64,000 bases of DNA, taken from NCBI RefSeq assembly GCF_001463885.1, contig NZ_BBWQ01000011.1, positions 248,001 to 312,000 of the forward strand, in the 5' to 3' direction. The DNA comes from Aureimonas altamirensis (GTDB lineage Bacteria; Pseudomonadota; Alphaproteobacteria; Rhizobiales; Rhizobiaceae). The translations under genes were made by a program, and so were the position numbers. Positions 1 through 16,930 of the stretch are shown piece after piece (within the stretch, counting starts at the first letter, position 1; every line of letters starts with the position of its first letter). The notes beneath the pieces are model-generated. The model was not told where the DNA came from. It searched no databases and saw nothing but the letters and a program-made list of their open reading frames with translations.

Positions 1-675
1 CAGGTGCTGGGCGTGTCGATCATCCCACCCTACCGCACCTACATTCTCTACGAGGTCTTCATCACGCCGGGGCTGATCGGCATGATCCTTCTGTTCAACG
101 GCATGCAATCCTCTTTGTCGATGGTCTACGACCGCGAATCCGGGTCGATGAAGACGTTGCTCGTCAGCCCGCTGCCCCGCTGGTTCCTGCTGGTGTCCAA
201 GCTTGCGGCGGGCGTCATGGTTGCGGTTTTGCAGGCCTATGTGTTTCTGGCCATCGCCTGGTTCTGGCGCGTGCGGCCGCCCGAGTTCGGCTACATCACC
301 GTCTTGCCCGCAATTATCCTGTCGGGCCTGATGCTGGGGGCGCTCGGCATGCTGCTGTCGTCGCTGGTGCGGCAGCTCGAAAATTTCGCCGGGGTGATGA
401 ACTTCGTCATCTTCCCGATGTATTTCGCCTCATCGGCGCTGTACCCCCTGTGGCGGGTGCGGGAGTCCTCGCCGCTGCTTTACCACATATGCCAGTTGAA
501 CCCCTTCACCCATGCGGTCGAGCTGATCCGCTTCGCCCTATACGGGCAGGTCAATGTGCCGGCCCTGGCGGTCGTGACGGCCTGCACGGCAGCCTTCCTC
601 GGCCTCGCCATCCTCGCCTACGACCCCATGCGCGGTACGATCGCCCGCAAGGGCGAAGCGCGTCCCGCAAGCTGA
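1..675 (+). CDS. PedC-like ABC transporter permease (ABC-2 family), 5' truncated
   Basis: This is the C-terminal part of an inner-membrane ABC-2 type permease. The reading frame is open from base 1, so the true start lies upstream of the window. About 224 residues are visible, with roughly five hydrophobic segments (near residues 15-35, 62-85, 98-120, 130-155 and 185-205) and the ABC-2 hallmark YDRESGSMKTLLVSPLPR before a long transmembrane pair. Permeases of this type (TIGR03861, alcohol ABC transporter PedC) accompany PQQ-alcohol dehydrogenase clusters, which fits the XoxF operon that follows. The ATPase partner is presumably to the left. The transported substrate is unknown. Assignment to the PedC branch rests on context plus family resemblance. 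Confidence 0.8.
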   Translation, partial: QVLGVSIIPPYRTYILYEVFITPGLIGMILLFNGMQSSLSMVYDRESGSMKTLLVSPLPRWFLLVSKLAAGVMVAVLQAYVFLAIAWFWRVRPPEFGYITVLPAIILSGLMLGALGMLLSSLVRQLENFAGVMNFVIFPMYFASSALYPLWRVRESSPLLYHICQLNPFTHAVELIRFALYGQVNVPALAVVTACTAAFLGLAILAYDPMRGTIARKGEARPAS

Positions 676-689
676 ACAGGAGATGCCCA

Positions 690-1400
690 ATGCGCCTGAC
701 CGCCCTCATCGCCTGCGGGCTCTGGCTTTTCCCCGCTGTGGCGCCGGCCCAGGCGCCGGCCCCGCGCGAGATACCCGAAGGCTTCGTCCTGCCCGGCCCG
801 GCACCCAAGGGCAACGCCGCCGCAAACCCCGTCCTGGCCGCGCCGGAGCATCATGGCAGCGCCGACTGGCCCTGCATCCAGCGCAAGGTTGCCCGGATGG
901 ATGCCGCGCAGATCTGGCCCGCCGCGCCTGAAACCGTTGCCCAGCCGGAACGCACGCCGGCCGAGCGCCAGCTTGTGCGGGAGATCGCCCAGCGCCGCGT
1001 GCCGATACCAGATGCACGCCAGCGCCTGACCGACCATCTGGCGGCGTTGCCGCCGGAGCGGCGCAGGGCGGCTGCCGAAGCCGTCTTCATCGACCTGTTG
1101 CATGAGCTGAACCGCGAGCGGGCCGATGTCATCAACGGCATCGGCCGCTATGCCGGCAAGCAGAAGACCCTAGCCGAAAGCATCCGTGCCGAGACGGCAA
1201 AGTTCGACAGGCTGATGAGCCAGCCTATGCCCGACCAGAACGAAGTTGCCCGGGAACAGGAGGCCCTGCTTTGGCAGACGCGCGTCTTCGACGAGCGCCG
1301 CCAATCCCTGACATATGTCTGCGAGGTGCCTGTGCTGATCGAGCAGCGCATGTTTGCCCTTGGCCGGCTTCTTAAGGATTTTGCGGAGAACGATCGCTAG
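690..1400 (+). CDS. secreted protein of unknown function in the PQQ cluster
   Basis: I do not recognise a family. The ATG at 690 is preceded by an AGGAG ribosome site at 678-682, and the gene lies 14 bases after the permease stop, so the two are probably cotranscribed. A longer in-frame reading from 450 runs through the permease gene and is rejected. The 236-residue product starts with a clear signal peptide ending near AQA-PA. A Pro/Ala-rich stretch follows, then a helical region rich in Arg, Glu and Gln, with two Cys (in WPCIQ and TYVCEV) that could pair in the periplasm. Its 3' end overlaps the convergent DUF6522-like gene by 29 bases. Its role in alcohol oxidation is inferred only from position. 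Confidence 0.75.
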   Translation: MRLTALIACGLWLFPAVAPAQAPAPREIPEGFVLPGPAPKGNAAANPVLAAPEHHGSADWPCIQRKVARMDAAQIWPAAPETVAQPERTPAERQLVREIAQRRVPIPDARQRLTDHLAALPPERRRAAAEAVFIDLLHELNRERADVINGIGRYAGKQKTLAESIRAETAKFDRLMSQPMPDQNEVAREQEALLWQTRVFDERRQSLTYVCEVPVLIEQRMFALGRLLKDFAENDR

Positions 1401-2854: not shown

Positions 2855-3394
2855 CTATTGCGGCTCGTGCGGCTGCAAGGGCTGTCCGGCCTGCGACCAG
2901 CCGTCGGTGCCGTCCGGATACCAGGCGACGGAGGTATAACCCATGGCGATGGCACGTCGGGCGGCATTCCAGCTCATCCAGCAATTTCGCTGGCAGTAGA
3001 ACACCAGCGGATGGGCACGGTCGCCGCCACTGGCCTTTGCGAGTCCCTCGGTGAAGTAACGCTCCGTCTGCGGTGCGAGATCGCCATAACCCGTGTCGGC
3101 CAGCCAGACGGACCCCGGGATGGCGTCGCGACGTGCGGGATGCCAGATGGTGCCTTCCGGGAGATTGTCGGGCTTCGGCGCGCGCGGCAGCACATCGACG
3201 AACACCGCCTCGCCGTCGCGCCACAGGGCGACCGCTTCGTCGGTGGTCAATACATGCGCCCCGGCCAGCGTGGCCGGTGTCGGCGCACGGTAATCGGAGC
3301 GTCGATAGTCGCCGGGCTCGCTCACCTCAGCGGCGGCCTGTGCGCCGAAGACCAGCGACAGCAGCGCCAGCATGGCCGGGGCGGAGCGCCGCAT
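2855..3394 (-). CDS. PQQ-catabolism-associated Cys-Trp motif protein (rhodanese-like)
   Basis: This exported protein belongs to TIGR03865, the PQQ-dependent catabolism-associated CXXCW motif family. The 179-residue product begins at the ATG at 3394, four bases after the XoxJ stop, and has a signal peptide ending at AQAAAEV. The rest resembles a rhodanese fold: residues 58-70 read WRDGEAVFVDVLPR, and the putative active loop is VFYCQRNCWMSW, with Cys134, Cys138 and Trp139. The two Cys suggest persulfide, thiol-transfer or disulfide chemistry in the periplasm. Its partner is unknown. The SoxYZ-like carrier and SoxH-like hydrolase nearby are natural candidates. Confidence 0.88.
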   Translation of the reverse strand: MRRSAPAMLALLSLVFGAQAAAEVSEPGDYRRSDYRAPTPATLAGAHVLTTDEAVALWRDGEAVFVDVLPRAPKPDNLPEGTIWHPARRDAIPGSVWLADTGYGDLAPQTERYFTEGLAKASGGDRAHPLVFYCQRNCWMSWNAARRAIAMGYTSVAWYPDGTDGWSQAGQPLQPHEPQ

Positions 3395-3398
3395 GGTC

Positions 3399-4259
3399 TT
3401 ATCCGCCCTGCGCCGGAGCAATGGGGCGGTTCTGCTCGTCCAGCAGCGGGATGCCGTAGGACAACAGGATTTCGTTGATGTCATCCTGGTTTTCGGCGAT
3501 CACCCGGTTCAACGTGCGCTTCCACTCCTGGTCGCTCGGCCGTACACCCATGGTGATGCGAAACACCATTGCCGGCCCGCGCGGCTCTTTCAGCAAGGGT
3601 ACGACAACGTAGTCGGCGCCGGCCTTGCCGGCCTGGTACGCGGCCAGCGGGCCCCAGAGAACGGCTGCATCGATGACGCCGTTTTCCAGATCCGCCATCA
3701 TGTCGGCTGCGGAATTGTCGATCCTCGTATCGACCATGAGCTGGTAGCCCTTGGCCTTGCCCATCAACCCGGCCTTGGCGATGAAGGTTGCCGGCGGCGT
3801 ACCGGCGACGACGCCGACCGTCTTGTCCTTCAGCCGCGCATCTTCCAGCGTTTCGACGCCGTCGAGCCCGCTGCCCTTGCGATAGACGATCGCATAGGCG
3901 GTGCGGTAGTAGGCGTTGGTGTTCTGGACCAGTTCGTCGCCCTGCGGATAGCTCATGATGATATCGCAGCGATGCAGGCCCAGCGTCATCCGCACGAAAC
4001 CGGTCGCCTGCGGAAAGTAGGTATAGCTGACCGACTTGCGGCCGAGCTTGCCCGCAAGGAAGGTGGCGAGTTCGTTTTCGAAACCTTCGCCCTTCTGGTT
4101 GGAATAGGGCATGGAGTTGGGATCGGCGCAGACGCGCAGTACGTCGGGATCGACCAGCTCGATGGCTCCGCCGAAATCCCTGTCCTGCGCACGGGCGGAA
4201 GCCGGCGCAAGGGCGCCGGCCACCATAAGCGCGATCATGAGCGTCAGAAGCCGAGGCAT
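3399..4259 (-). CDS. xoxJ: XoxJ/MxaJ-like quinoprotein-associated periplasmic binding protein
   Basis: This 286-residue periplasmic protein has the fold of family-3 solute-binding proteins (TIGR03871, quinoprotein dehydrogenase-associated). Such proteins are thought to help mature or activate methanol dehydrogenase rather than import a nutrient. A signal peptide ends near ASARAQD, and motifs such as LRVCADPNSMPYSNQKGEGF, DIIMSYPQGDE and VGVVAGTPPATF are typical. The ATG at 4259 overlaps the end of the cytochrome gene by 16 bases, consistent with translational coupling. Position directly behind xoxF and the cytochrome gene is the standard xoxFGJ order. Confidence 0.92.
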   Translation of the reverse strand: MPRLLTLMIALMVAGALAPASARAQDRDFGGAIELVDPDVLRVCADPNSMPYSNQKGEGFENELATFLAGKLGRKSVSYTYFPQATGFVRMTLGLHRCDIIMSYPQGDELVQNTNAYYRTAYAIVYRKGSGLDGVETLEDARLKDKTVGVVAGTPPATFIAKAGLMGKAKGYQLMVDTRIDNSAADMMADLENGVIDAAVLWGPLAAYQAGKAGADYVVVPLLKEPRGPAMVFRITMGVRPSDQEWKRTLNRVIAENQDDINEILLSYGIPLLDEQNRPIAPAQGG

Positions 4260-4792
4260 TCGTTTTCCGCCGCGCGTGCCTGTTCGTTGATCGGCGGACG
4301 CTTCGGCTCTCCCTTGCCGACGACGCCGTCCGTACGGGCGCGGAGATAGACGTAGATGGCGTCCAGATAGCACATCACGTTCTTGTCTTCGCCCCAGGCC
4401 GGCATCACCGAATTGCCGCCGGTGTTCCACACGTTCTGCTGTCCGCCGACGACGACGCCGGTGAAGGCGTAGTAATCCATCTGCTTGAGGGATTCCGTCA
4501 GGTTGGGCGCGAAGGACGAGCCCTGCCCGTCCGGCCCATGGCACTGCATGCAGTTGGCCGTGTATTTCTTGTAGCCGCGCCACGTATAGAAATCGGCGGT
4601 CCCGTCCTGCTGCAGCGAATAGGTCGGCACGTCGGCGGAGTCCACGAACTTGCCGTTTTCCCCCTCCGTCGCCTCGACACCGTTGTTGACGGTGTCGAGC
4701 GATGGATGGGCAGAAGGCTGCTGCTGCTGCGCCGACGCCGTCCCCATTGCGAGGAAGACGACGCCGGCAAACGCCAAGATTACCCTGTTCAT
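4244..4792 (-). CDS. xoxG: methanol-oxidation c-type cytochrome (XoxG-like)
   Basis: This exported monohaem cytochrome c is the likely electron acceptor of XoxF. The start at 4792 is preceded by GGAG at a good distance and gives a 182-residue precursor with a signal peptide ending at ASAQ. A start at 4822 is possible but less well placed. The haem site is CMQCH at residues 81-85, and Met130 in NSVMPAWG is the probable axial ligand. Two further Cys, 141 and 179, match the four-Cys methanol-metabolism cytochrome family (TIGR03874). The gene starts 19 bases after the xoxF stop. Confidence 0.92.
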   Translation of the reverse strand: MNRVILAFAGVVFLAMGTASAQQQQPSAHPSLDTVNNGVEATEGENGKFVDSADVPTYSLQQDGTADFYTWRGYKKYTANCMQCHGPDGQGSSFAPNLTESLKQMDYYAFTGVVVGGQQNVWNTGGNSVMPAWGEDKNVMCYLDAIYVYLRARTDGVVGKGEPKRPPINEQARAAENECLGF

Positions 4793-4811
4793 CGACAAAC
4801 CGTCTCCGATC

Positions 4812-6668
4812 TTAATTGCCATCGGTCGCGGAGGCTGTCTGGTCGGGTACGGTGAAGACGGTCAGCTGCCCGCCCAGTGCCGTGTATCGGGACAGCGAGG
4901 CATAGCCGCCGACCGCGCCGAGGCCGTCATTGGCATCGGTCAGGCCAGCCGCGAGGCCGATGCCGGCCCAGCCGCCGATGCCGGACAATACGGCCACATA
5001 CTGCTGCCCGTCGCGCTCATAGGTCGTGACGTTGCCGATGATGCCGGACGGCGTCTTGAAGCTGTAGAGCTCCTTGCCCGTTTCCGCGTCGACGGCCTTC
5101 AGGTAGCCTTCCAGCGTTCCGTAGAAGACGACGCCGCCACCGGTGGCCAGCGCGCCCGACCACACCGAGAACTTCTCGGGGATCGACCATTTGATCTCGC
5201 CCGAGCTGGCGTCCCAGGCAATGAAGTTGCCCATGCCGCCATGGCTGTTCGGCGCCGGATACATCGACAGGGTTGCGCCGACATAGGGTTGCCCGGCCGT
5301 GTAGGCGACGCGGAACGGCTCGTAGTCCATGCAGACGTGATTGGTCGGCACGTAGAACATGCCCGTGTCCGGAGAGAACGCGGCCGGCTGCTGGTCCTTG
5401 GTGCCCAGGGCCGCCGGGCAGATGCCCGTGGTGTTGACGTCTTCGCCGTTGAATTCCGTCGAATACTGGTCCACCACCTGCGGCCGGCCGTACTGATCGG
5501 AGTTCTTGTCCATCACCACTTCGGTCGCCCAGTTGACGACCGGGTCGTATTTCTTGGCTACCAGCAACTCGCCCGATACCCGGTCGAGCGTGTAGGCAAA
5601 GCCGTTCCGGTCGAAATGCACGAGCGCCTTGCGGTCCTGTCCATCCACCGGAATATCGGCCAGGATCATCTCGTTGACGCCGTCGAAATCCCATTCGTCG
5701 TGCGGGGTCATCTGGTAGACCCATTTCGCCATGCCGGTATCGGCATCGCGGGCGAAGATGGTCATCGACCATTTATTGTCGCCAGGGCGCTGCGAGGGGT
5801 TCCAGGTCGATGGGTTGCCCGAGCCGTAATAGACGAGGTTCGTCTCCGGATCGTAGGAGAACCAACCCCAGGTCGTGCCGCCGCCGATCTTCCACTGATC
5901 GCCTTCCCAGGTCTTGAGGGACGAATCCTTGCCCACCGGCTTGCCGAGTTCGGTCGTCTTTTCCGGATCGAAGAGCATCTCCTCGTCCGGCCCGGTCGAA
6001 TAGGCGCGCCAGGCGACGGAACCGTCCTTCAGATTATAGGCGGTCAGCGAGCCGCGCACGCCGAACTCGCCGCCGGAAATGCCGATATAGACCTTGTCCT
6101 TCACCACCAGCGGCGCGGCCGTGCCGGTTTCGCCCTTGGACGCATCGCCATTCTTGACCGACCAGAGCTGCTCGCCCGTGTCGGCATTGAGCGCGACGAC
6201 CGAGGTGTCGGCCTGATGCAGGATGATCTTGGCCGGCTGATCGCCCTCGGGCGGCACATAGGCGACGCCGCGGTTCACGGTGTCGCAGCACATCACCGGG
6301 ATGACGTTGGCATCCTGACGCGGCTCGTATTTCCACTTGATCGCGCCGTCTTCGGAAAGATCGAGCGCGTAGACGATGTTGGGGAACGGCGTATGCACGA
6401 ACATCGTGTCGCCGATCACGAGGGGGCCGCCTTCATGACCACGCAAGACGCCGGTCGAGAAGGACCAGGCGACCTGAAGATCGCCCACATTGGCCTTGTC
6501 GATGTTCTTGAGCGGCGAGTAACGGGTATTAGCGTAGTCGCCCGACTGCATGACCCAGTTGGTCGGATCCTTGCCGAGCTCAGCGAGAGACTCGTTGGCC
6601 CCCGCACCGGAACTCAGGGCAAGCAGCATCGTCGAGGCGGCGGCCGCCTTCGTTATGGATTTCAGCAC
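4812..6668 (-). CDS. xoxF: lanthanide-type PQQ methanol dehydrogenase XoxF
   Basis: This periplasmic quinoprotein oxidises methanol, and possibly formaldehyde or ethanol, with PQQ as cofactor. I chose the GTG at 6668 because GGGAGGA lies just ahead of it; an ATG at 6686 would put that site inside the gene. The 618-residue product has a signal peptide ending near GAGA. It has tryptophan-docking repeats of an eight-bladed propeller, the vicinal disulfide Cys127-Cys128 (VMCCDTV) that stacks on PQQ, and catalytic Asp327 in HDEWDFDG. Asp329, two residues later, is the extra lanthanide ligand that distinguishes XoxF from calcium-type MxaF, which has Ala there. It heads the xoxF-xoxG-xoxJ operon. 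Confidence 0.97.
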
Positions 6669-7196
6669 GGATTCCTCCCAAAGCAAGCGTCAGCAAGCCA
6701 TGCGCGGTCGCGGAACCGCACGAGCAACATCGCAATGTTAATTGGGGACGGTTTCCGGCAGCGTGTCACGACCGCCAATAGGGGTCCTGGTGGGCACCGT
6801 TAAAGTTCGCCCTACCGAGGCCTTCGAGATCTGTCGACGCTCCCAACACCGACAGCCTTGAAGCCGGAAACCAAGGATGAAGCTAGGCCGAGTTTCCCGT
6901 TTGTGCAAGTATCAATTGAAAGAATTTGTTGCTGCAACGCAAACACATATATCATTGCACCGCAGCAAGGACAATATTGTAAGTAAATATGGCTCGCGTA
7001 ACGGCGTTACATAAGATGATATCACGGCGACACGAGGCCCCATGACGAAGATCGGCTTTCGATCAACCGGTTCGACGCAGGTCTAAACTGCCTTCCAGGG
7101 GTGGCATGAACTGCAACTCGACGATCGGGATATGGGAGCTCAACCTGAAATTGTTGTTCGGTCCCCTTTGCTTCCGACTAATGGAAAGGTTCTATT
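6669..7196. promoter_or_regulatory. divergent control region between xoxF and the SoxH-like gene
   Basis: These 528 bases carry no supported gene. They separate the leftward xox operon from the rightward SoxH/SoxYZ operon and must hold both promoters. Composition drops sharply from about 6890 to 7020, where A/T runs include ATATATCATTG and the palindrome CAATATTG. The xoxF ribosome site GGGAGGA is at 6674-6680 on the minus strand. A GGAAAGG stretch precedes the GTG at 7197. I could not assign a specific regulator site or a convincing -35/-10 pair. Confidence 0.6.
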
Positions 7197-8156
7197 GTGA
7201 TCCGTATCCTGAATCCGACATGGACTTTTTCCCGACTTCAAGCAGCACAGGGCTTTGCGGCCGTCGCGGTCATATGGGGCATGGGCTTTTCGGAAGCTGC
7301 CGAACCCATCGACTTCAAGGAAATGGAGCCCGGACTGTACATTCATGTCGGCCAGGTGGCAGTGCCGGACAGCGCGAATCAGGGTGATACGTCCAATATC
7401 GCCTTCGTCGTCGGCAACGACATGGTGGTTGTGGTGGACGCCGGCGGCAGCCGAGCCATTGGGCAAGCCACGCTGGACGCGATCCGGGGCGTGACGGACA
7501 AGCCGGTCGGCTGGCTTATCCTGACACACATGCACCCGGACCATGTCGCCGGATCCGCTCCGCTGGTGGAGGCCGGCGCAACCGTGATCGCGCATTCCGG
7601 ATACGAGGCGTCCATCGCGCCGCGCCGCGACTTCTACCGCGATCTCGAAGTTCGGCGGCAGGACGGTGATCCGGAGGCGTTCTTCTTTTCCGCGCCCGAC
7701 GAGGTGGTGGAGGGCGATCGCATCATCGATCTCGGCAACCGCCGGCTCCGGCTGACATCCTGGCCGGTTGCCCACACGGCAACCGACCTGACCGTGCTGG
7801 ACGAAACGTCCGGGACGTTGATCGCCGGCGACCTCGTCTTTGTCGACCACGTGCCGACGCTCGATGGCAGCCTGAAAGGCTGGATCGCAGCCTTGCCGCA
7901 ACTGGCGGCCATCCCCGCCCGGCAGGTCGTGCCGGGCCATGGCCCGGCGCCGCAGCCCTGGCCGGAGGCACTGCGCAATGAGGCCCGCTACCTTGACGTG
8001 CTTGCCCGCGACATCAGGGCGCAGATCGCGTCCGGCGGCTCGATCGGCGCGGCCCAGACCGGCGCTGCGGCGTCCGAACGCGGGAAATGGGCGCTCTTCG
8101 ATGCGTATAACGGGCAAAACGTGTCTGCCGCCTTCACCGAGCTCGAATGGGAATAG
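7197..8156 (+). CDS. SoxH-like quinoprotein relay zinc metallohydrolase
   Basis: This is an exported metallo-beta-lactamase-fold hydrolase of the quinoprotein relay / SoxH-related families (TIGR04558/TIGR04559), 319 residues. The metal ligands are visible: His111, His113, Asp115 and His116 in THMHPDH, His193 in VAHTATD, Asp212 in IAGDL and His248 in VPGHGP, so a two-metal site is intact. A signal sequence covers about the first 35 residues and ends near SEAAE. The GTG start is preceded by GGAAAGG. It is followed 65 bases later by the SoxYZ-like carrier. Its substrate is not known; hydrolysis of a thioester or adduct held on the carrier Cys is an inference from the Sox parallel. Confidence 0.9.
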   Translation: MIRILNPTWTFSRLQAAQGFAAVAVIWGMGFSEAAEPIDFKEMEPGLYIHVGQVAVPDSANQGDTSNIAFVVGNDMVVVVDAGGSRAIGQATLDAIRGVTDKPVGWLILTHMHPDHVAGSAPLVEAGATVIAHSGYEASIAPRRDFYRDLEVRRQDGDPEAFFFSAPDEVVEGDRIIDLGNRRLRLTSWPVAHTATDLTVLDETSGTLIAGDLVFVDHVPTLDGSLKGWIAALPQLAAIPARQVVPGHGPAPQPWPEALRNEARYLDVLARDIRAQIASGGSIGAAQTGAAASERGKWALFDAYNGQNVSAAFTELEWE

Positions 8157-8221
8157 GCTTCCCTTCCGGATCGCGGCGCGCCACATTCACCACGGGCATC
8201 GTCGATCTGGGAGGATCGGAC

Positions 8222-9022
8222 ATGGCCGCCATGCCTATCAACCGCTTTTCAAGCGCAGCTCTCGTCGCGCTCGTTCTTGGCTTGTCCGTTACGGCCGGGG
8301 CCGGGCCAAGCCGGGCGTCCGACAGTTGGAGCGAATTGAAGGGCGCCATCTTCGGAGACCGAGCCATCGCGGATGATCGCGTGGTGGAGTTGGAAGCGCC
8401 ATCCAGAGCCACCGACCCGGCCGTCGTGCCCGTCGTCATCCGGCTTGCCGAAGATGCGGCGATCAAGCAGGTGACTTTGATCGTCGATGAAAACCCGGCA
8501 CCCGTCGCCGCCACCTTCACCCTCGGGCCGGATACGGGCATCCGCTCCATCGAGACGCGCTTGCGCGTCAACGCCTACAGCAATGTGCGCGCCGTCGCCG
8601 AGACGGCCGATGGGGCACTGCATGAGTCCGTCGTCTATGTGAAGGCGTCCGGAGGCTGCGCCGCGCCTGCCGCCCGCAACCCCGCCGAGGCTGCGTCCAC
8701 CCTGGGCGAAATGCGGCTGCGGCGCCTGGTGGAGGCGGCCAACGGCCAGACCCAGGAAGCGCAGTTGATGATCCGCCACCCCAATAATTCCGGGCTGCAG
8801 CGCGATCAGGTGACGCATCTCTACATTCCGGCGCATTTCGTCTCCGACCTGGAAGTGCGGTTGGACGACAAGCCCTTTCTGTCCATGAGCGGCGGGATCA
8901 GCATTTCCGAGGACCCGAATTTCCGCTTCCGCTACGATGGGCCGGAGGGCGTGTTCCGGGTGATCGCATCGGACACGGAAGGGCAGACCTTCGCCAAGGT
9001 CTTCAGCCCCGGAGAGGGCTGA
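8222..9022 (+). CDS. quinoprotein-associated fused SoxYZ-like carrier protein
   Basis: This is an exported single-chain fusion of SoxY-like and SoxZ-like domains (TIGR04557). The ATG at 8222 has an ideal GGAGGAT site at 8210-8216; an upstream in-frame ATG at 8147 overlaps the previous gene and is rejected. The 266-residue product has a signal peptide ending near SRASD, a SoxY-like half to about residue 142 and then GGC with Cys146. A short Ala/Pro linker (AAPAARNPAEAAS) leads to a SoxZ-like half to the end. In true SoxY the GGCGG arm is at the extreme C-terminus; here the carrier Cys lies between the domains. The cargo is unknown. It is paired with the SoxH-like hydrolase. Confidence 0.9.
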   Translation: MAAMPINRFSSAALVALVLGLSVTAGAGPSRASDSWSELKGAIFGDRAIADDRVVELEAPSRATDPAVVPVVIRLAEDAAIKQVTLIVDENPAPVAATFTLGPDTGIRSIETRLRVNAYSNVRAVAETADGALHESVVYVKASGGCAAPAARNPAEAASTLGEMRLRRLVEAANGQTQEAQLMIRHPNNSGLQRDQVTHLYIPAHFVSDLEVRLDDKPFLSMSGGISISEDPNFRFRYDGPEGVFRVIASDTEGQTFAKVFSPGEG

Positions 9023-9029
9023 AAGCCGC

Positions 9030-9377
9030 TCAGAAACAGCGTACCTCTGCTTCGGCCTGCGCGCGGCGCAGATCGCCGATGGCGGCTTTCGCCGGGGCGG
9101 ACGTGCGGAAGACGACGCCCTTCTCGCCGGTCACCTGCCCCATCGACAGGTATGTGCTGGCTTCGACATAGCGCGCATAGGGAACGATGGAGGCCACCAC
9201 GTCGAACGAGCAGGAGCATTGGCGCAGCGCCTGCTGCGTCTGTCCGTTGGTTTGCATGCAGGCAAAGACGTAGTCGGCGACGGCGTCCGTCGGATAGTCG
9301 TTCGTGACGGCGCCGGAGGGCGCCACAAAAAGCCCGCATGCCAAAATGGCCATGAGGCCGATGGATCGCTTCTTCAT
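9030..9377 (-). CDS. small exported Cys-rich protein of the quinoprotein cluster
   Basis: I recognise this only as a conserved-looking small secreted protein, with no functional name. The 115-residue precursor has a signal peptide ending near PSGA. The mature part has Cys40, the pair Cys54 and Cys56 in RQCSCSF, and Cys114 two residues from the end, which suggests disulfides or a metal or thiol role. The ATG overlaps the stop of the beta-propeller gene by four bases (ATGA), so the two are translationally coupled. The gene converges with the SoxYZ-like gene, leaving only seven bases between them. Confidence 0.75.
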   Translation of the reverse strand: MKKRSIGLMAILACGLFVAPSGAVTNDYPTDAVADYVFACMQTNGQTQQALRQCSCSFDVVASIVPYARYVEASTYLSMGQVTGEKGVVFRTSAPAKAAIGDLRRAQAEAEVRCF

Positions 9378-10345
9378 TCGGACCTCCCTTGGCCGCCGTC
9401 ATAGGCGACGAATTTGCCGAAGGCGCGCGGGCCGTCGCCCACCGCCACCTCGCCCACACGCTGCAATGTCGCAGCATCGATCTTCATCAGCGTATTATCG
9501 AACCAGTTGACCACGTAGAGCGCGCGTCCATCCCCGGCCGCCGCGATCCCTTCCGGATATTCCCCGACATCGACCGTCCCGACAGGCGCAAATGTTTCGG
9601 CGTCGAATACGCTGACCGTCGCACCGTGCTGGTCGGTGGCGAAGACCCGGCCGGAGGCGGTGGCCGTCGCATAGGGCCGGTCACCGACAGGCACGCTGGC
9701 CACTGTCGCCAGCGAAGCCACATCGACGATGCTGACATCGTTGGACACGACGTTGGCGACATGCAGCCGGCTGCCATCGGGCGAAAACTCGACGCCGAAA
9801 GGGCGCTCGCCCACCGGCACGGTTCCGACAAGCGCCATCTTGCCGGTCTCGAAGACGGAGATGCGGTTGGAATCCCGGTCGGCCGTCACAACCAGCCTGC
9901 CATCCGGAGATACCGCGACGCCCGACGGAGAAAGGCCGGTCGCCACCTCGGCGATTATGCGGCCATCTTCGGGGTCCACGACCGACAGTCGATGGGCATA
10001 CCAGTCCGCCACATAGACCGGCGCGCCCGATGGATGCACCGCGACGCCCAGCGGCCCGCCCTTCACCTCGATGCGGCGCGCCACCCTTGCCGCCTTGGTA
10101 TCGATCACGGTGAGCGTGCCGGATTCCGGGCTGGTCACATAGGCATGGCGTCCATCCGGCGGCACGGCGACACCGGCGGGCTTACCGCCGATGGGGATGG
10201 TTGCCACGACGCGCATGGACGTCAGGTCCACGACCGACAGATCGTCGCTCGACTGGTTGGTGACATAGGCCGTGTCCGCCCCGGCGCCCGTTGCCGTCAG
10301 AAGGGCGGCCGCCAGTACCGCGCACCGAAAGACCGATGCCGGCAT
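9374..10345 (-). CDS. PQQ-cluster YVTN beta-propeller protein
   Basis: This exported beta-propeller protein of 323 residues is built from about seven YVTN-type repeats, such as YVTNQSSDDLSVVD, YVTSPESGTLTVID and YVADWYAHRLSVVD. It matches the PQQ-dependent catabolism-associated beta-propeller family (TIGR03866), whose role is not known; a scaffold or binding function is likely. A signal peptide ends near ATGAGA. It lies four bases after the SRPBCC gene and overlaps the next gene by four bases, forming a three-gene operon of secreted proteins running towards the SoxYZ-like gene. Confidence 0.88.
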   Translation of the reverse strand: MPASVFRCAVLAAALLTATGAGADTAYVTNQSSDDLSVVDLTSMRVVATIPIGGKPAGVAVPPDGRHAYVTSPESGTLTVIDTKAARVARRIEVKGGPLGVAVHPSGAPVYVADWYAHRLSVVDPEDGRIIAEVATGLSPSGVAVSPDGRLVVTADRDSNRISVFETGKMALVGTVPVGERPFGVEFSPDGSRLHVANVVSNDVSIVDVASLATVASVPVGDRPYATATASGRVFATDQHGATVSVFDAETFAPVGTVDVGEYPEGIAAAGDGRALYVVNWFDNTLMKIDAATLQRVGEVAVGDGPRAFGKFVAYDGGQGRSE

Positions 10346-10349
10346 GGAA

Positions 10350-10886
10350 TCAGGACCCGTTTTCCAGACTGGCCTTCAACCCCTCCACGACCTTTTCCTG
10401 CATGGCGGCCACGGCATCGTTGGCGGCCTTGTCGTTGAGGTTTTCCGGCGGCTCGTTGTTCGGATAGCCCCGGTAGTAGGCGCTGCGAATCTCGATCTCG
10501 GATTTGTCGCCCCCGGCTGCGGGCTTCACCGTCAGGAACTCGCTGTAATTGGTCACGGGCAAAACCGCGGTACCCACCTCGGGCATCTGGATCTGGTAGC
10601 TCATGCGCGCGGCATCGTATTTGTAGAGCTCCTGTCGCAGGACCCCACCATCCTTCAGCGTCACCTCGCGCACGCTGTTCACCGCGTTGCCCGGTTCGGC
10701 CTTGACCGAGGCAACCAGCGGATTCCACGACAGATCGTCGAAATTGCCGATCTTCTGCCAGACGGCGACCGGCGCCATGTCGACTTCGATGGACGTGGCA
10801 TGCTTCTGCCGCGACGGGCCGTGCGCAAGGGCTATGCCCGGCAGGACCGTCAGGGCCAGTGTCAACGCGACCAAGCTACGTGTCAC
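10350..10886 (-). CDS. exported SRPBCC-fold protein
   Basis: This 178-residue secreted protein has an SRPBCC (START/Bet v1-like) ligand-binding fold. The pattern ATSIEVDMAPVAVWQKIGNF and the later SEIEIRSAYYRGYP are typical of polyketide-cyclase-like members. The start is taken as GTG at 10886 because GGGAGGA lies just before it; a TTG at 10901 would contain that site. The signal peptide ends at IALAHG. It is the first gene of the SRPBCC, propeller and Cys-rich protein operon. Most SRPBCC proteins are cytoplasmic, so a periplasmic copy in a quinoprotein cluster is uncommon. Its ligand is unknown. Confidence 0.8.
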   Translation of the reverse strand: MTRSLVALTLALTVLPGIALAHGPSRQKHATSIEVDMAPVAVWQKIGNFDDLSWNPLVASVKAEPGNAVNSVREVTLKDGGVLRQELYKYDAARMSYQIQMPEVGTAVLPVTNYSEFLTVKPAAGGDKSEIEIRSAYYRGYPNNEPPENLNDKAANDAVAAMQEKVVEGLKASLENGS

Positions 10887-11010
10887 GCTATCCTCCCTCA
10901 AGACGCAACGGTGCCCAGGCGAAACGCTATGACGTCCGCTCCATCATGGGAAGGCCGAAGGAATTTTCGGAAACGATATCGGGAAGATTTCCCGGCAGCC
11001 CTGGGAAGAA

Positions 11011-14482: not shown

Positions 14483-16762
14483 TCAGAACGTGGTGCTGAC
14501 CTTGAGGTAGAAGGACCGGCCGGGCTCGTTGAAGGTTGCCGCGCCGGCTGCGTTGCCGCTGCCCTTGCGGAACAGCCGCTCGTCGAAGATGTTGCTGACG
14601 CCGGCGCCGATCCGCAATTGCTCGTTGGCCTGGAAGTCCACGTTGAAGCCCACCAGCGTATACGGATCGAGATCGTCCGTATTGGTTGCCAGGCGCCCCG
14701 TCACGACGTTGCGGGAGGGTGCTTCCGTCTTGCCGTAGTGCGTCAGCGTCAAGGCGGTGAACAGGCGTTCCGTGGCCTGCCACTCCAGTGCGGTGTTGAT
14801 CGTGTATTCCGGCACCAGGGACAACGGATTGCCGGTTTCCTTGTCCTCCGATTCCAGCATGTAGGTGGCGTTGGTGCGCCAGTTCACCGAGTCCAGCAGC
14901 GGCACCAGAAGGTTGCCTTCCAGCCCGGACAGCACCGCCTTCGGCGTGTTGTCCCACTGGAACAACTGCGCACGCCCCAGAACCGCGACGGGCACCACGC
15001 CCGCCGTGATGCGGTCCTTGTAGTCATTGTGGAAGTAGGTCAGGCCCGCCTGCCATCCGGCATCGTTGATATAGTTGATGCCGACTTCCTTGTTGATGCT
15101 CGTCTCGGCCTTCAGGTCGGGATTGCCGATGACGTAGCAACCGAGCCCGAGCGATTGGAAGTTGAAGGGGCAGCCGTTGCCCATGGTGAAATAGACGTAG
15201 TTTTCATTGAGCTGGTACAGGTTGGGCGCCTTGAAGGCTCTTGCGATGCCCGCCTTCAGCGAAATCTCGTCGGTCAGGTCGTAGGAGGCGTTGAGGCTGG
15301 GGCTGGCATTGCCGCCGAACTCGCTGTGATAATCGCCCCGGATGCCCGGCGTCACGATCAGCTTGTCCGTGACGTGGATATTGTCTTCCAGATACAGGCC
15401 GTAAAGCTGCGCGTCGATCTTCGAGTCGCGGTCGGCGGGGTCGGATGGGACGCCGGGAATGACCACGCCCGAGGCAATCCCCTGCCGCAGCGACACAGGG
15501 TCGTCCATGTACTCGCCGCGGAATTCGGCGCCCACTGTGACGTTCTGGTCGAAGTGATAAGTGAAGGGGATGTTGAATTCCGACTTCGCCGCCCAGTTGT
15601 CGAGCGTGATCGTGCCCTTTTCCAGATTGCTGCTGATCGCCCCCTCGCCGCTTCCGGCCGTTCCTTCCAGGAAGCGGTTGTTGCGGGTGTTCTCCCACTG
15701 CACATACGAGTTCGAGGTGCCGAACTCGTAATTGCCGCGGTGGGTCAGTGCCAGCGTGGTGCGGTAGAGCGTGTTGGTCTCCTCGCCCTGGCTGGCCAGT
15801 TCCTCGATGATGCTGCTGGTGCCGGCAAGCTGCCGGTCGCCGGTGAAGATGTTGCCCTGCCGGCTGTAGCCGGCCTCGAACTCGAACTCGTGGGACTCGT
15901 TGGCATACCAGGTCAGCACGCCGCGCACGTCCTTGTTGACGACACCCTCGCGCCCGGCCGGTATGTCGGTCGGCAGCAGGGCCGCGTCGGCGTTGATCGC
16001 CGGGTCGTCGGCGTTGGTCTTGCTGTAGCTGCCGTAGACCCGGTAGGCGAAGTCCTGCCCCAGGGGCCCGCCCGCAAAAACGTTGCCGCGGAAGGTCTTG
16101 CCCTCTTCCGAGTGCTGCGGAATGTTGACGTAGCTCGAAACGGTGACGCTCTGCTCGGCAGGGCGCTTGGTGATGATGTTCACGACGCCGCCCGCCGCAC
16201 CCGAACCGTAGCGCGCGGCGGCCGGGCCGCGCAGCACCTCGATCCGCTCGACCGCCTCGGGCGGCACCCAGTTGGAGTCGCCGCGCGTGTCGCGCTCGCC
16301 GGAGCGGCCGTAGCGGACGGCATTGCGCGACAGGACAGGCTTGCCGTCGATCAGGATCAGCGTGTTTTCCGGCCCCATGCCGCGAATGTCGATCTGGCGG
16401 TTGTTGCCACGCACGCCCGACGCCGAATTGCCGGTGAGGTTCACGCCCGGCTGCCGGCGGATGATGTCGGACAGGTCGTTGACCGGGGGCCGATGATCGA
16501 TGTCGGTGGCGGTGATGATCGAAACGCCCGGCGCCTGCTTCAATTGTTCGTCGGCCGAAAGCACCAGCACCTCGTCGAGCGCGATGGCCTCGCCGGCCGG
16601 AAGAACGCTTTCGCCTTCCTCGATCTGCTCCTGCGCAACGGCGCCTTCCTGGGCTGCGGCATGGCCCACCGGTACGGACAGGGCGATCAGCAGCCCGATG
16701 GCGGTACCGGAGCGGAGGACGGTTCGGTTTGTAAGAGTGCGCGACAAGGCGAAAATCTCCAT
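14483..16762 (-). CDS. FepA-like TonB-dependent outer-membrane receptor
   Basis: This outer-membrane gated channel most resembles the FepA/PirA/IroN class of catecholate siderophore receptors. From the ATG at 16762 it has 759 residues. A signal peptide ends near GHAAAQ. A plug domain contains [38 protein letters not shown] and [10 protein letters not shown], a 22-strand barrel follows, and the C-terminus ends in aromatic Phe (KVSTTF). The segment [17 protein letters not shown] is characteristic of FepA-type plugs. Reading from 16873 would add 37 residues from a structured leader and is rejected. The substrate may be ferric enterobactin-like; a metal chelate used by XoxF is a possibility with no direct support. 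Confidence 0.9.
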
Positions 16763-16930
16763 AGGCAAGCCGTTTCCCGGCTTTTGGGAGAAGCCGGGAT
16801 CAGGTGATGAGCTGGAATGGAAAACCGTGGCGCTGGCGGCGGCTACTGCCCGGACTTTCAGGTTCGCCCCCATGTGACACAGGAGCCTGAAAGCTAAAAG
16901 TAGATTCCTGCACTCAACTATTGCAACTGG
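16763..16930 (-). promoter_or_regulatory. structured leader and promoter region of the TonB receptor
   Basis: On the minus strand, TTGCAA followed 18 bases later by TACTTT (about 16926 to 16897) is a plausible promoter. An 8-base inverted repeat (CTTTCAGG at 16855-16862 and CCTGAAAG at 16886-16893) lies just downstream. Nearer the ATG are two hairpins that share an arm. One pairs 16776-16783 with 16791-16798 over 8 bp, and the other pairs 16767-16772 with 16778-16783 over 6 bp. They cannot form together, and the second ends four bases before the start codon. I could not match this to cobalamin, TPP or FMN riboswitch consensus elements. Confidence 0.45.

Follow-up and report, generated by a model that had tools for sequence, protein, structure and literature searches.

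Clusters in which Sox-like genes lie beside a pyrroloquinoline quinone (PQQ)-dependent dehydrogenase have been described in several bacteria (the publications cited here were drawn on through those portions of their text that were available). In the ped cluster of Pseudomonas putida KT2440, a rhodanese-like protein, a fused SoxYZ, and SoxH (PP_2666, PP_2677, and PP_2678) are encoded beside the lanthanide quinoprotein PedH; this trio has been associated with lanthanide enzymes, and two ideas have been put forward for its role, namely, maturation of the enzyme and protection of PQQ from sulfur (PMC12997753). In the SoxYZ-S4 and SoxYZ-S2 fusion clades of lucinid symbionts, a fused carrier occurs near soxH, beside xoxF or another PQQ dehydrogenase, and the authors of that study doubted a direct sulfur role for these proteins and mentioned viral members (PMC11237559). 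The soxH gene also adjoins xoxF5 (PMC5934484), and overexpression of RpoE6 led to upregulation of a CXXCW protein along with a PQQ dehydrogenase and PedF (PMC12826043). No measured reaction for this carrier was found in the available text of the literature searched. We examined a locus of this type in a 64,000-nucleotide stretch of DNA from Aureimonas altamirensis (positions 248001 to 312000 of the 476-kb contig NZ_BBWQ01000011.1), referred to here as the window and used for all coordinates. The locus is an ordinary member of the xox/ped cluster family, with XoxF where the ped cluster has PedH, and its gene content and order overlap closely with those of the xoxF clusters of Sagittula, Sinorhizobium, and Methylobacterium. 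Three layers were distinguished. Sequence comparisons supported a XoxF module, predicted to consist of XoxF, the cytochrome XoxG, the chaperone-like XoxJ, and an Orf6-type protein with four Cys residues (4-Cys protein). The second layer is an optional thiol-carrier accessory, in which a SoxYZ-like fusion protein whose arm bears a single invariant Cys is paired with a SoxH-like zinc hydrolase, and the third consists of lineage extras, a beta-propeller and an SRPBCC protein.

A sequence-only reading of the window had described nine consecutive genes on three transcripts, all encoding exported proteins that form one relay. Scans with NCBIfam and Pfam profiles recovered all nine genes in place and upheld their names. 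The transcripts corresponded to three runs, one on the minus strand from 6686 to 2855 (xoxF, xoxG, xoxJ, and CXXCW, in that order), one on the plus strand from 7197 to 9022 (soxH-like and then soxYZ-like), and one on the minus strand from 10901 to 9030 (SRPBCC, beta-propeller, and 4-Cys protein, in that order). Export is predicted for all nine proteins: an N-terminal hydrophobic stretch followed by small-residue motifs was detected in nine of nine by a crude hydropathy scan for which start codons were partly picked by eye. The XoxF-type methanol dehydrogenase (4812 to 6686, minus strand) scored 750.6 bits against TIGR03075 (cut-off, 480) and contains a WDFDGVNE motif (encoded at about 5670 to 5693) and a vicinal Cys pair, CCDT. 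An Asp two residues past the catalytic Asp is a mark of lanthanide dependence; the window enzyme has this residue and is predicted to be lanthanide dependent, and its membership of the XoxF family follows from the PQQ family score, the Asp, and the XoxG- and XoxJ-like neighbors. The XoxG-like cytochrome c (4244 to 4822, minus strand; TIGR03874, 167 bits; cut-off, 162) has haem-motif Cys residues and two further Cys residues that were invariant in 40 rows. The XoxJ-like periplasmic binding protein (3399 to 4259, minus strand; presumed start MPRLL) scored 285 bits against TIGR03871 (cut-off, 212). The rhodanese-like CXXCW protein (2855 to 3394, minus strand; TIGR03865, 229 bits; cut-off, 128; Pfam Rhodanese) has the motif C-x3-C-W, with Cys codons at about 2981 to 2995, and both Cys residues were invariant in 69 of 69 aligned rows. 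The same genome encodes a second PQQ dehydrogenase (G000b) with a DxA motif, which we take to be of the MxaF type.

The fused SoxYZ-like carrier (8147 to 9022, plus strand) scored 273.6 bits against TIGR04557 (cut-off, 140) and matched both SoxY and SoxZ of Pfam within one protein. It fell below the equivalog cut-offs for SoxY (TIGR04488, 69.9 versus 125) and SoxZ (TIGR04490, 55.2 versus 76). The Cys codon of its GGC motif is located at about 8657 to 8659, between the SoxY and SoxZ domains, and the arm is therefore internal and tethered at both ends rather than C-terminal. GGC was invariant in 14 of 14 diverse members, and the Cys was present in 81 of 81 aligned rows and in 71 viral proteins. 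The predicted structure (mean pLDDT, 87.8, with lower confidence for the arm) matched SoxY and SoxZ structures, and the closest named relative found, from Aureimonas frigidaquae, was 71% identical. The SoxH-like zinc metallohydrolase (7197 to 8156, plus strand; the quinoprotein relay system zinc metallohydrolase 2 of TIGR04559, 342.8 bits; cut-off, 280; Pfam Lactamase_B) contains HxHPDH (encoded at about 7527 to 7544), H193, D212, and H248, and its seven His/Asp ligand positions were 99 to 100% conserved in 78 aligned rows. This ligand pattern, HxHPDH followed by His, Asp, and His, is that of dinuclear enzymes such as glyoxalase II, and a weak sequence similarity to hydroxyacylglutathione hydrolase was detected.

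In the glutathione-dependent oxidation of formaldehyde by AdhI and FghA, a thiol adduct is formed, oxidized to a thioester, and hydrolyzed. That route is cytoplasmic and uses a small-molecule thiol, whereas the putative route of the window would be periplasmic and protein bound. We infer that aldehyde released by the lanthanide quinoprotein may add to the carrier Cys as a hemithioacetal, itself an alcohol, which would then be oxidized to a thioester by the quinoprotein or another partner; SoxH would hydrolyze the carrier thioester, yielding the carboxylate and the free Cys. Such a cycle would be a counterpart of the glutathione path to formate and could act as a safety valve beside the cytoplasmic route. 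This aldehyde-thiol carrier cycle, which the sequence-only reading had put forward in outline, is the most likely single reading of the carrier pair and is considered possible, with a probability of about 0.38. What the analysis shows directly is the carrier Cys, the ligands of the hydrolase, and the association with a class of enzymes.

The distribution of the carrier was examined in 398 Pseudomonadota genomes (matches at E values of 1e-30 or better) and in a family-even sample of 181 alphaproteobacterial genomes. A carrier was counted if it exceeded the TIGR04557 cut-off, had SoxY and SoxZ fused, and contained no internal stop; PQQ dehydrogenases were listed at E values of 1e-150 or better, with up to three candidates scored per genome. 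Fused carriers were present in 44 of the 398 genomes. All 44 belonged to the 95 genomes in which a PQQ alcohol dehydrogenase exceeded the cut-off, and 0 to the 303 others (Fisher, 3e-32). As nine of these 44 genomes belong to one genus, P values are descriptive. At least 31 of these genomes have a listed dehydrogenase no more than 20 kb away from the carrier. In the alphaproteobacterial sample, the carrier was found in 13 of 181 genomes; of these 13, 12 encode the hydrolase (threshold, 150 bits), versus 3 of the 168 others, and 6 encode the CXXCW protein (threshold, 85 bits), again versus 3 of 168. Unfused SoxY was not significantly enriched with the carrier (4/13 versus 33/168; P = 0.31).

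Neighborhoods were compared for the best 80 of at least 579 carrier relatives, mostly from Hyphomicrobiales, and window families were tallied for the 60 of these loci that exceed 20 kb (full flank). SoxH was encoded in 58 of these 60 loci, CXXCW in 57, XoxJ in 57, the 4-Cys protein in 54, and a XoxF-family dehydrogenase in 52; these five recur beyond chance around carrier relatives. XoxG was found in 31, a beta-propeller in 34, and the SRPBCC protein in 3. Judged by position, the beta-propellers of those 34 loci were mostly of a transporter-linked kind, and the place of the window's own beta-propeller was matched in just 2 of the 80 loci (L112 and L135), indicating that the beta-propeller and SRPBCC genes are local, lineage-specific additions. 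The window beta-propeller (9374 to 10345, minus strand) is of the YVTN type and diverges from the TIGR03866 type (182.5 bits; cut-off, 287.3). The exported SRPBCC protein (10350 to 10901, minus strand; PF10604 [Polyketide_cyc2], 77 bits), for which no NCBIfam family was found at an E value of 0.01, is perhaps MxaD-like. The expectation that all nine families would occur together held in part: carrier and hydrolase accompany PQQ dehydrogenases far beyond chance, but CXXCW was found in only 6 of 13 alphaproteobacterial carrier genomes and SRPBCC in only 3 of 60 loci. The tally, together with the phyletic profile of the 4-Cys protein described below, splits the nine genes and rules out a single nine-gene functional unit.

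An ATPase gene of a NitT/TauT-like ATP-binding cassette (ABC) importer lay 0 to 40 bp upstream of soxH in 6 of the 80 loci (L118, L119, L120, L124, L126, and L141), and in several Bradyrhizobium loci such a gene lay about 5 kb downstream of soxH, at about 13 kb; the binding protein of the soxH-adjoining importer was SsuA-like but below the cut-off. The carrier might have a separate role, for example, with the substrate of the neighboring importer, and be held beside the dehydrogenase by inherited operon structure. The direct adjacency in those six loci fits this possibility, as does the absence of all other window families searched for, including hydrolase and dehydrogenase, from the viral stretches that carry the carrier. 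Since the importer stood beside soxH in just 6 of 80 loci while a dehydrogenase was present in 44 of 44 carrier genomes (a set in which the importer was not sought), we regard this as improbable. A small protein with no Pfam match (L181:14642-15022 and relatives) recurred in 14 of the 80 loci.

The Sox ancestry of the carrier raised the question of a sulfur substrate. The carrier fold (by sequence and model) and the GGC arm are common to the window carrier and the Sox system of thiosulfate oxidation (SoxY, SoxZ, and SoxB), but SoxAX, SoxB, and SoxCD were all absent from the nine cluster proteins and two left-edge proteins scanned with NCBIfam and Pfam. Thiosulfate oxidation by the window locus is disfavored, given the missed SoxY and SoxZ cut-offs and the lack of enrichment of unfused SoxY. 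A second sulfur-based explanation is that the carrier guards the dehydrogenase. Sulfite, thiosulfate, sulfide, and other nucleophilic sulfur species able to add to PQQ would be bound by the carrier, the quinone of PQQ being rendered more electrophilic by a trivalent lanthanide, and SoxH would then cleave off the sulfur group, assisted by the rhodanese-like protein where present. It has been proposed for this family that PQQ or the dehydrogenase is shielded from sulfur compounds (PMC12997753 and PMC11237559), SoxH has been reported to compensate for SoxB in Sulfurimonas CVO (PMC11237559), and the SsuA-like binding protein of the importer adjoining soxH points the same way. Such a guard would account for the Sox ancestry and possibly for the association with lanthanides. 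Nevertheless, the missing Sox enzymes, the distribution of unfused SoxY, and the position of the carrier near fghA and adhI in two named loci argue against it, and this explanation appears somewhat unlikely.

In order to determine which dehydrogenase goes with the carrier, selected enzymes of the PQQ genomes were aligned to the window XoxF and searched for the motif WD[FY]DGxNE. This XoxF/ExaF motif was found in 40 of 44 carrier genomes versus 20 of 51 carrier-negative PQQ genomes (P = 1e-7), one genome on each side (G232 and G486, respectively) having had no enzyme read. The sole types read in the other three carrier genomes (G382, G227, and G314) lacked the motif, and further, unread dehydrogenases were listed for each. 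XoxF-clade enzymes accounted for 27 carrier-positive and 6 carrier-negative genomes, the remaining motif enzymes being ExaF/PedH-like, and the other carrier-negative PQQ genomes had mostly DxT types. Four more carrier-negative genomes (G447, G315, G433, and G464) had an Asp at +2 without the full motif; counting these as lanthanide types changed the P value to 6e-6. The carrier pair is thus optional, and its link, judged from the enzymes read, is to genomes encoding dehydrogenases of the XoxF or ExaF/PedH type, the lanthanide enzymes.

These alignments also bear on the published proposal of a role in maturation, whereby the carrier, the hydrolase, and the CXXCW protein would act on the dehydrogenase itself, by making or repairing its vicinal disulfide or by aiding cofactor loading (PMC12997753). 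Colocation of the genes with XoxJ, whose relatives are thought to aid cofactor loading, is in keeping with it (PMC12997753). The vicinal Cys pair, however, was present in nearly all dehydrogenases read, including DxT, DxS, and DxA types, while genomes with only these types read mostly lacked the carrier; hence, the disulfide does not explain the distribution of the carrier and was ruled out as its reason. In addition, at least 20 genomes had XoxF/ExaF-type enzymes and no carrier. When transposon mutants were screened for an inability of XoxF to produce formaldehyde, insertions were recovered in xoxG, xoxJ, the gene of an MxaD homologue, orf6, and orf7, and among the genes with four or more hits in the text available, none was labeled sox, hydrolase, or rhodanese (PMC7391723). 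A maturation role is therefore judged unlikely.

The 4-Cys protein (9030 to 9377, minus strand) proved to have a distribution of its own. Four residues (C40, C54, C56, and C114) were invariant in 64 of 64 rows. No Pfam family, NCBIfam family (at an E value of 0.01), or PDB sequence match was found; its model (mean pLDDT, 86.8) was all helical, with no Foldseek match at an E value of 0.001 or better and no row with a Z score of at least 5 when Foldseek's list was aligned with VIA-align. Profiling was performed on 80 genomes picked for dehydrogenases or carriers, after 32 of 112 had been dropped: seven of one genus, 23 of 31 without the XoxF/ExaF motif, and G137 and G140, which have XoxF-like enzymes at 45 to 49% identity. 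The protein was detected in 38 of the 80 genomes, including 31 of the 34 in which a XoxF-clade enzyme was read (all but G008, G023, and G519) and 8 of 8 XoxF genomes without a carrier. It was absent from 39 of the 46 genomes in which no XoxF-clade enzyme was read; the seven exceptions comprised three with other, unread dehydrogenases (G382, G436, and G311), three with no enzyme read (G232, G155, and G130), and one with a weak match (G071). Apart from two of these (G311 and G436), the protein was not found in genomes with only ExaF-type enzymes read, which sets the ped cluster apart from the window locus. As it tracks XoxF with or without the carrier, the 4-Cys protein is best seen as part of the XoxF module.

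Gene order suggested an identity for this protein. In three Methylobacterium loci (L146, L151, and L186), the 4-Cys gene followed pqqE (recognized by eye) and an orf7-like gene, an Orf7-Orf6-like pair beside pqqE; the window copy of the 4-Cys gene is not beside pqqE. Methylorubrum extorquens AM1 has the gene order pqqE-orf7-orf6, orf6 being META1p1746; there, loss of orf6 slowed growth on methanol with lanthanum (0.03 versus 0.16 per hour), and orf6 was required only when lanthanum was supplied (PMC7391723). The 4-Cys protein is likely to be Orf6 of M. extorquens, an identification based on synteny. Orf7-like genes were present in 13 loci beyond L146, L151, L158, and L186, some of which overlap within one genome, and lay directly before the 4-Cys gene at L186:13905-14564, L158:12993-13751, L107:13666-14307, and L111:8246-8854; two Orf7-like proteins scanned had no Pfam match.

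Formaldehyde genes were found near several carriers. On one Sagittula and one Sinorhizobium medicae plasmid, fghA and the glutathione formaldehyde dehydrogenase gene adhI, an insertion not seen in the window, adjoin the carrier and hydrolase; both strands are used, and the succession runs CXXCW, XoxJ-like, XoxG, XoxF, cytochrome, fghA, adhI, hypothetical, zinc hydrolase, carrier, and two hypotheticals. A cluster of fghA-like open reading frames (ORFs), called from one scanned member, occurred in 22 of the 80 loci, and the A. altamirensis genome has fae at a distance of 13 kb from the window. Of the genomes in which a XoxF-clade enzyme was read or the 4-Cys protein was detected, 23 of the 32 carrier-positive ones had fae, versus 2 of the 9 carrier-negative ones (P = 0.017). 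By family, assigned by hand, the counts were 12 of 14 carrier families versus 1 of 7, with f24 on both sides and G071 set aside for its weak 4-Cys match (E value, 2e-4). This association hints at a link of the carrier with formaldehyde flux. The invariant carrier Cys, the full set of hydrolase ligands, the nearby formaldehyde genes, and the fae association all fit a formaldehyde-thiol cycle.

Several observations weigh against this cycle. The fae association is confounded by relatedness, and of the 51 PQQ genomes noted above that have no carrier, at least 20 encode XoxF/ExaF-type enzymes. The best PDB sequence match of SoxH was another protein of the metallo-beta-lactamase fold and not a thioesterase. 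Carriers also occur beside ExaF-type enzymes, whose usual substrate is ethanol. Carrier genomes with only ExaF-type or other enzymes read and no 4-Cys protein were mostly without fae (G314 has fae), and formaldehyde is therefore unlikely to be the sole substrate; ExaF itself oxidizes methanol straight to formate (PMC7391723). A cytoplasmic formaldehyde route (fae or glutathione formaldehyde dehydrogenase over the cut-off) was present in 11 of 13 carrier genomes tested, with fae in 8, the dehydrogenase in 4, and both in the A. altamirensis genome (G000); of the other two, G169 had dehydrogenase fragments at contig ends and otherwise only fghA, and neither route was found in G023 (71% complete). 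The carrier pair thus cannot be the only formaldehyde outlet of these 11 genomes, and its role as a replacement for cytoplasmic formaldehyde oxidation was ruled out for most of the 13. Two genomes of the 181-genome sample carry the carrier without a PQQ dehydrogenase over the cut-off. One (G130, locus L098) has the carrier, hydrolase, 4-Cys protein, and fae, and the 4-Cys gene found there hints at a XoxF gene that the assembly does not contain, so that the lack of a dehydrogenase is perhaps an assembly gap; the other (G155) is 79% complete and has its carrier on a 3.5-kb contig. Finally, the trio genes of P. putida gave minimal transposon phenotypes, although in medium without rare earths (PMC12997753). 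Taken together, the cytoplasmic routes, the ExaF-type partners, and the minimal phenotype do not require a formaldehyde-thiol cycle.

Fused carriers were also encoded on 71 viral contigs from IMG/VR (L321 to L391), with GGC[SA] kept in all 71. All seven viral carriers scanned exceeded the TIGR04557 cut-off and none of the seven reached that of SoxY or SoxZ. Genes for a terminase, a major head protein, a tail tube protein, and a UvsX-like recombinase were among the neighbors on five contigs inspected. A tree of 65 carrier rows, built with a quick method, midpoint rooted, and with rows labeled XoxF-type by default, placed 13 viral representatives as four label changes among XoxF-type-labeled carriers, next to G059, G411, G023/G155, and G118/G142/G130; the viral row L390 was long branched. 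Five carriers formed a separate group (support, 99) comprising those of G051 and G169 (both beside ExaF-type enzymes), that of G125, and two of G075, the partners of the last three being other or unseen; G519, labeled XoxF-type, stood beside this group (support, 84). G075 has three fused carriers (L093, L100, and L110), one beside XoxF and two in the separate group, as well as many PQQ dehydrogenases. A search of INPHARED with phage carrier proteins gave no match, and no PHROGs family was found for three viral carriers.

Fused phage soxYZ with a ggCs motif has been read as a thiosulfate oxidation gene, a Methylophilales-like clade being listed, and has been counted in an estimate of the phage contribution to sulfur oxidation; the words methanol and quinoprotein are absent from the main text (PMC8190135). 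As the seven viral carriers scanned pass TIGR04557 and miss the SoxY and SoxZ cut-offs, the oxidation served by phage soxYZ may be that of methanol and not of thiosulfate, a reassignment based on the carriers scanned here and not on the sequence set of PMC8190135. The broader proposal, that lanthanide quinoproteins own a protein-bound thiol route for aldehydes and that tailed phages took up its carrier several times, is tentative, with the odds somewhat against it; if it is true, phage soxYZ genes counted as thiosulfate oxidation genes would be methanol metabolism genes.

The left edge of the window holds the end of a PedA1A2BC/Lut-type transporter set, overlooked by the sequence-only reading. 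It comprises the end of a PedC/LutF-type ABC permease gene (4 to 675, plus strand; TIGR03861, 332 bits) and a gene for an exported protein that is LutG-like by position (684 to 1400, plus strand), for which no NCBIfam family and no Pfam match over the cut-off were found. LutG-like relatives were present in 44 and LutF-like proteins in 40 of the 60 full-flank loci. Further members of the set (TIGR03863, TIGR03866, and TIGR03864) lie just outside the window in L031, whose TIGR03866 protein, unlike the window beta-propeller, exceeds the cut-off. Within the transporter set of this locus (L031:11393-13359), sensor kinase-like and response regulator-like ORFs were read by eye, and a TonB-dependent receptor-like ORF, also judged by eye, is located near the cluster (14483 to 16873, minus strand).

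Databases and a 2026 review already name the genes of this locus, and the study of lucinid symbionts contained no dehydrogenase-type comparison or Orf6 link in the text available (PMC11237559). The present analysis adds that the XoxF module is distinct from the carrier pair, which is optional; that carriers accompany enzymes of the XoxF/ExaF type instead of following the disulfide common to other types; that the 4-Cys gene is probably orf6; and that phage soxYZ may have to be reassigned. Fewer candidates are left for the role of the carrier, as any such role has to fit a distribution that follows XoxF/ExaF-type enzymes and is not explained by the vicinal disulfide. With the Orf6-like partner of XoxF set apart from the carrier pair, each can be deleted and tested on its own, and phage soxYZ genes included in a published estimate of sulfur oxidation (PMC8190135) may belong to methanol metabolism.

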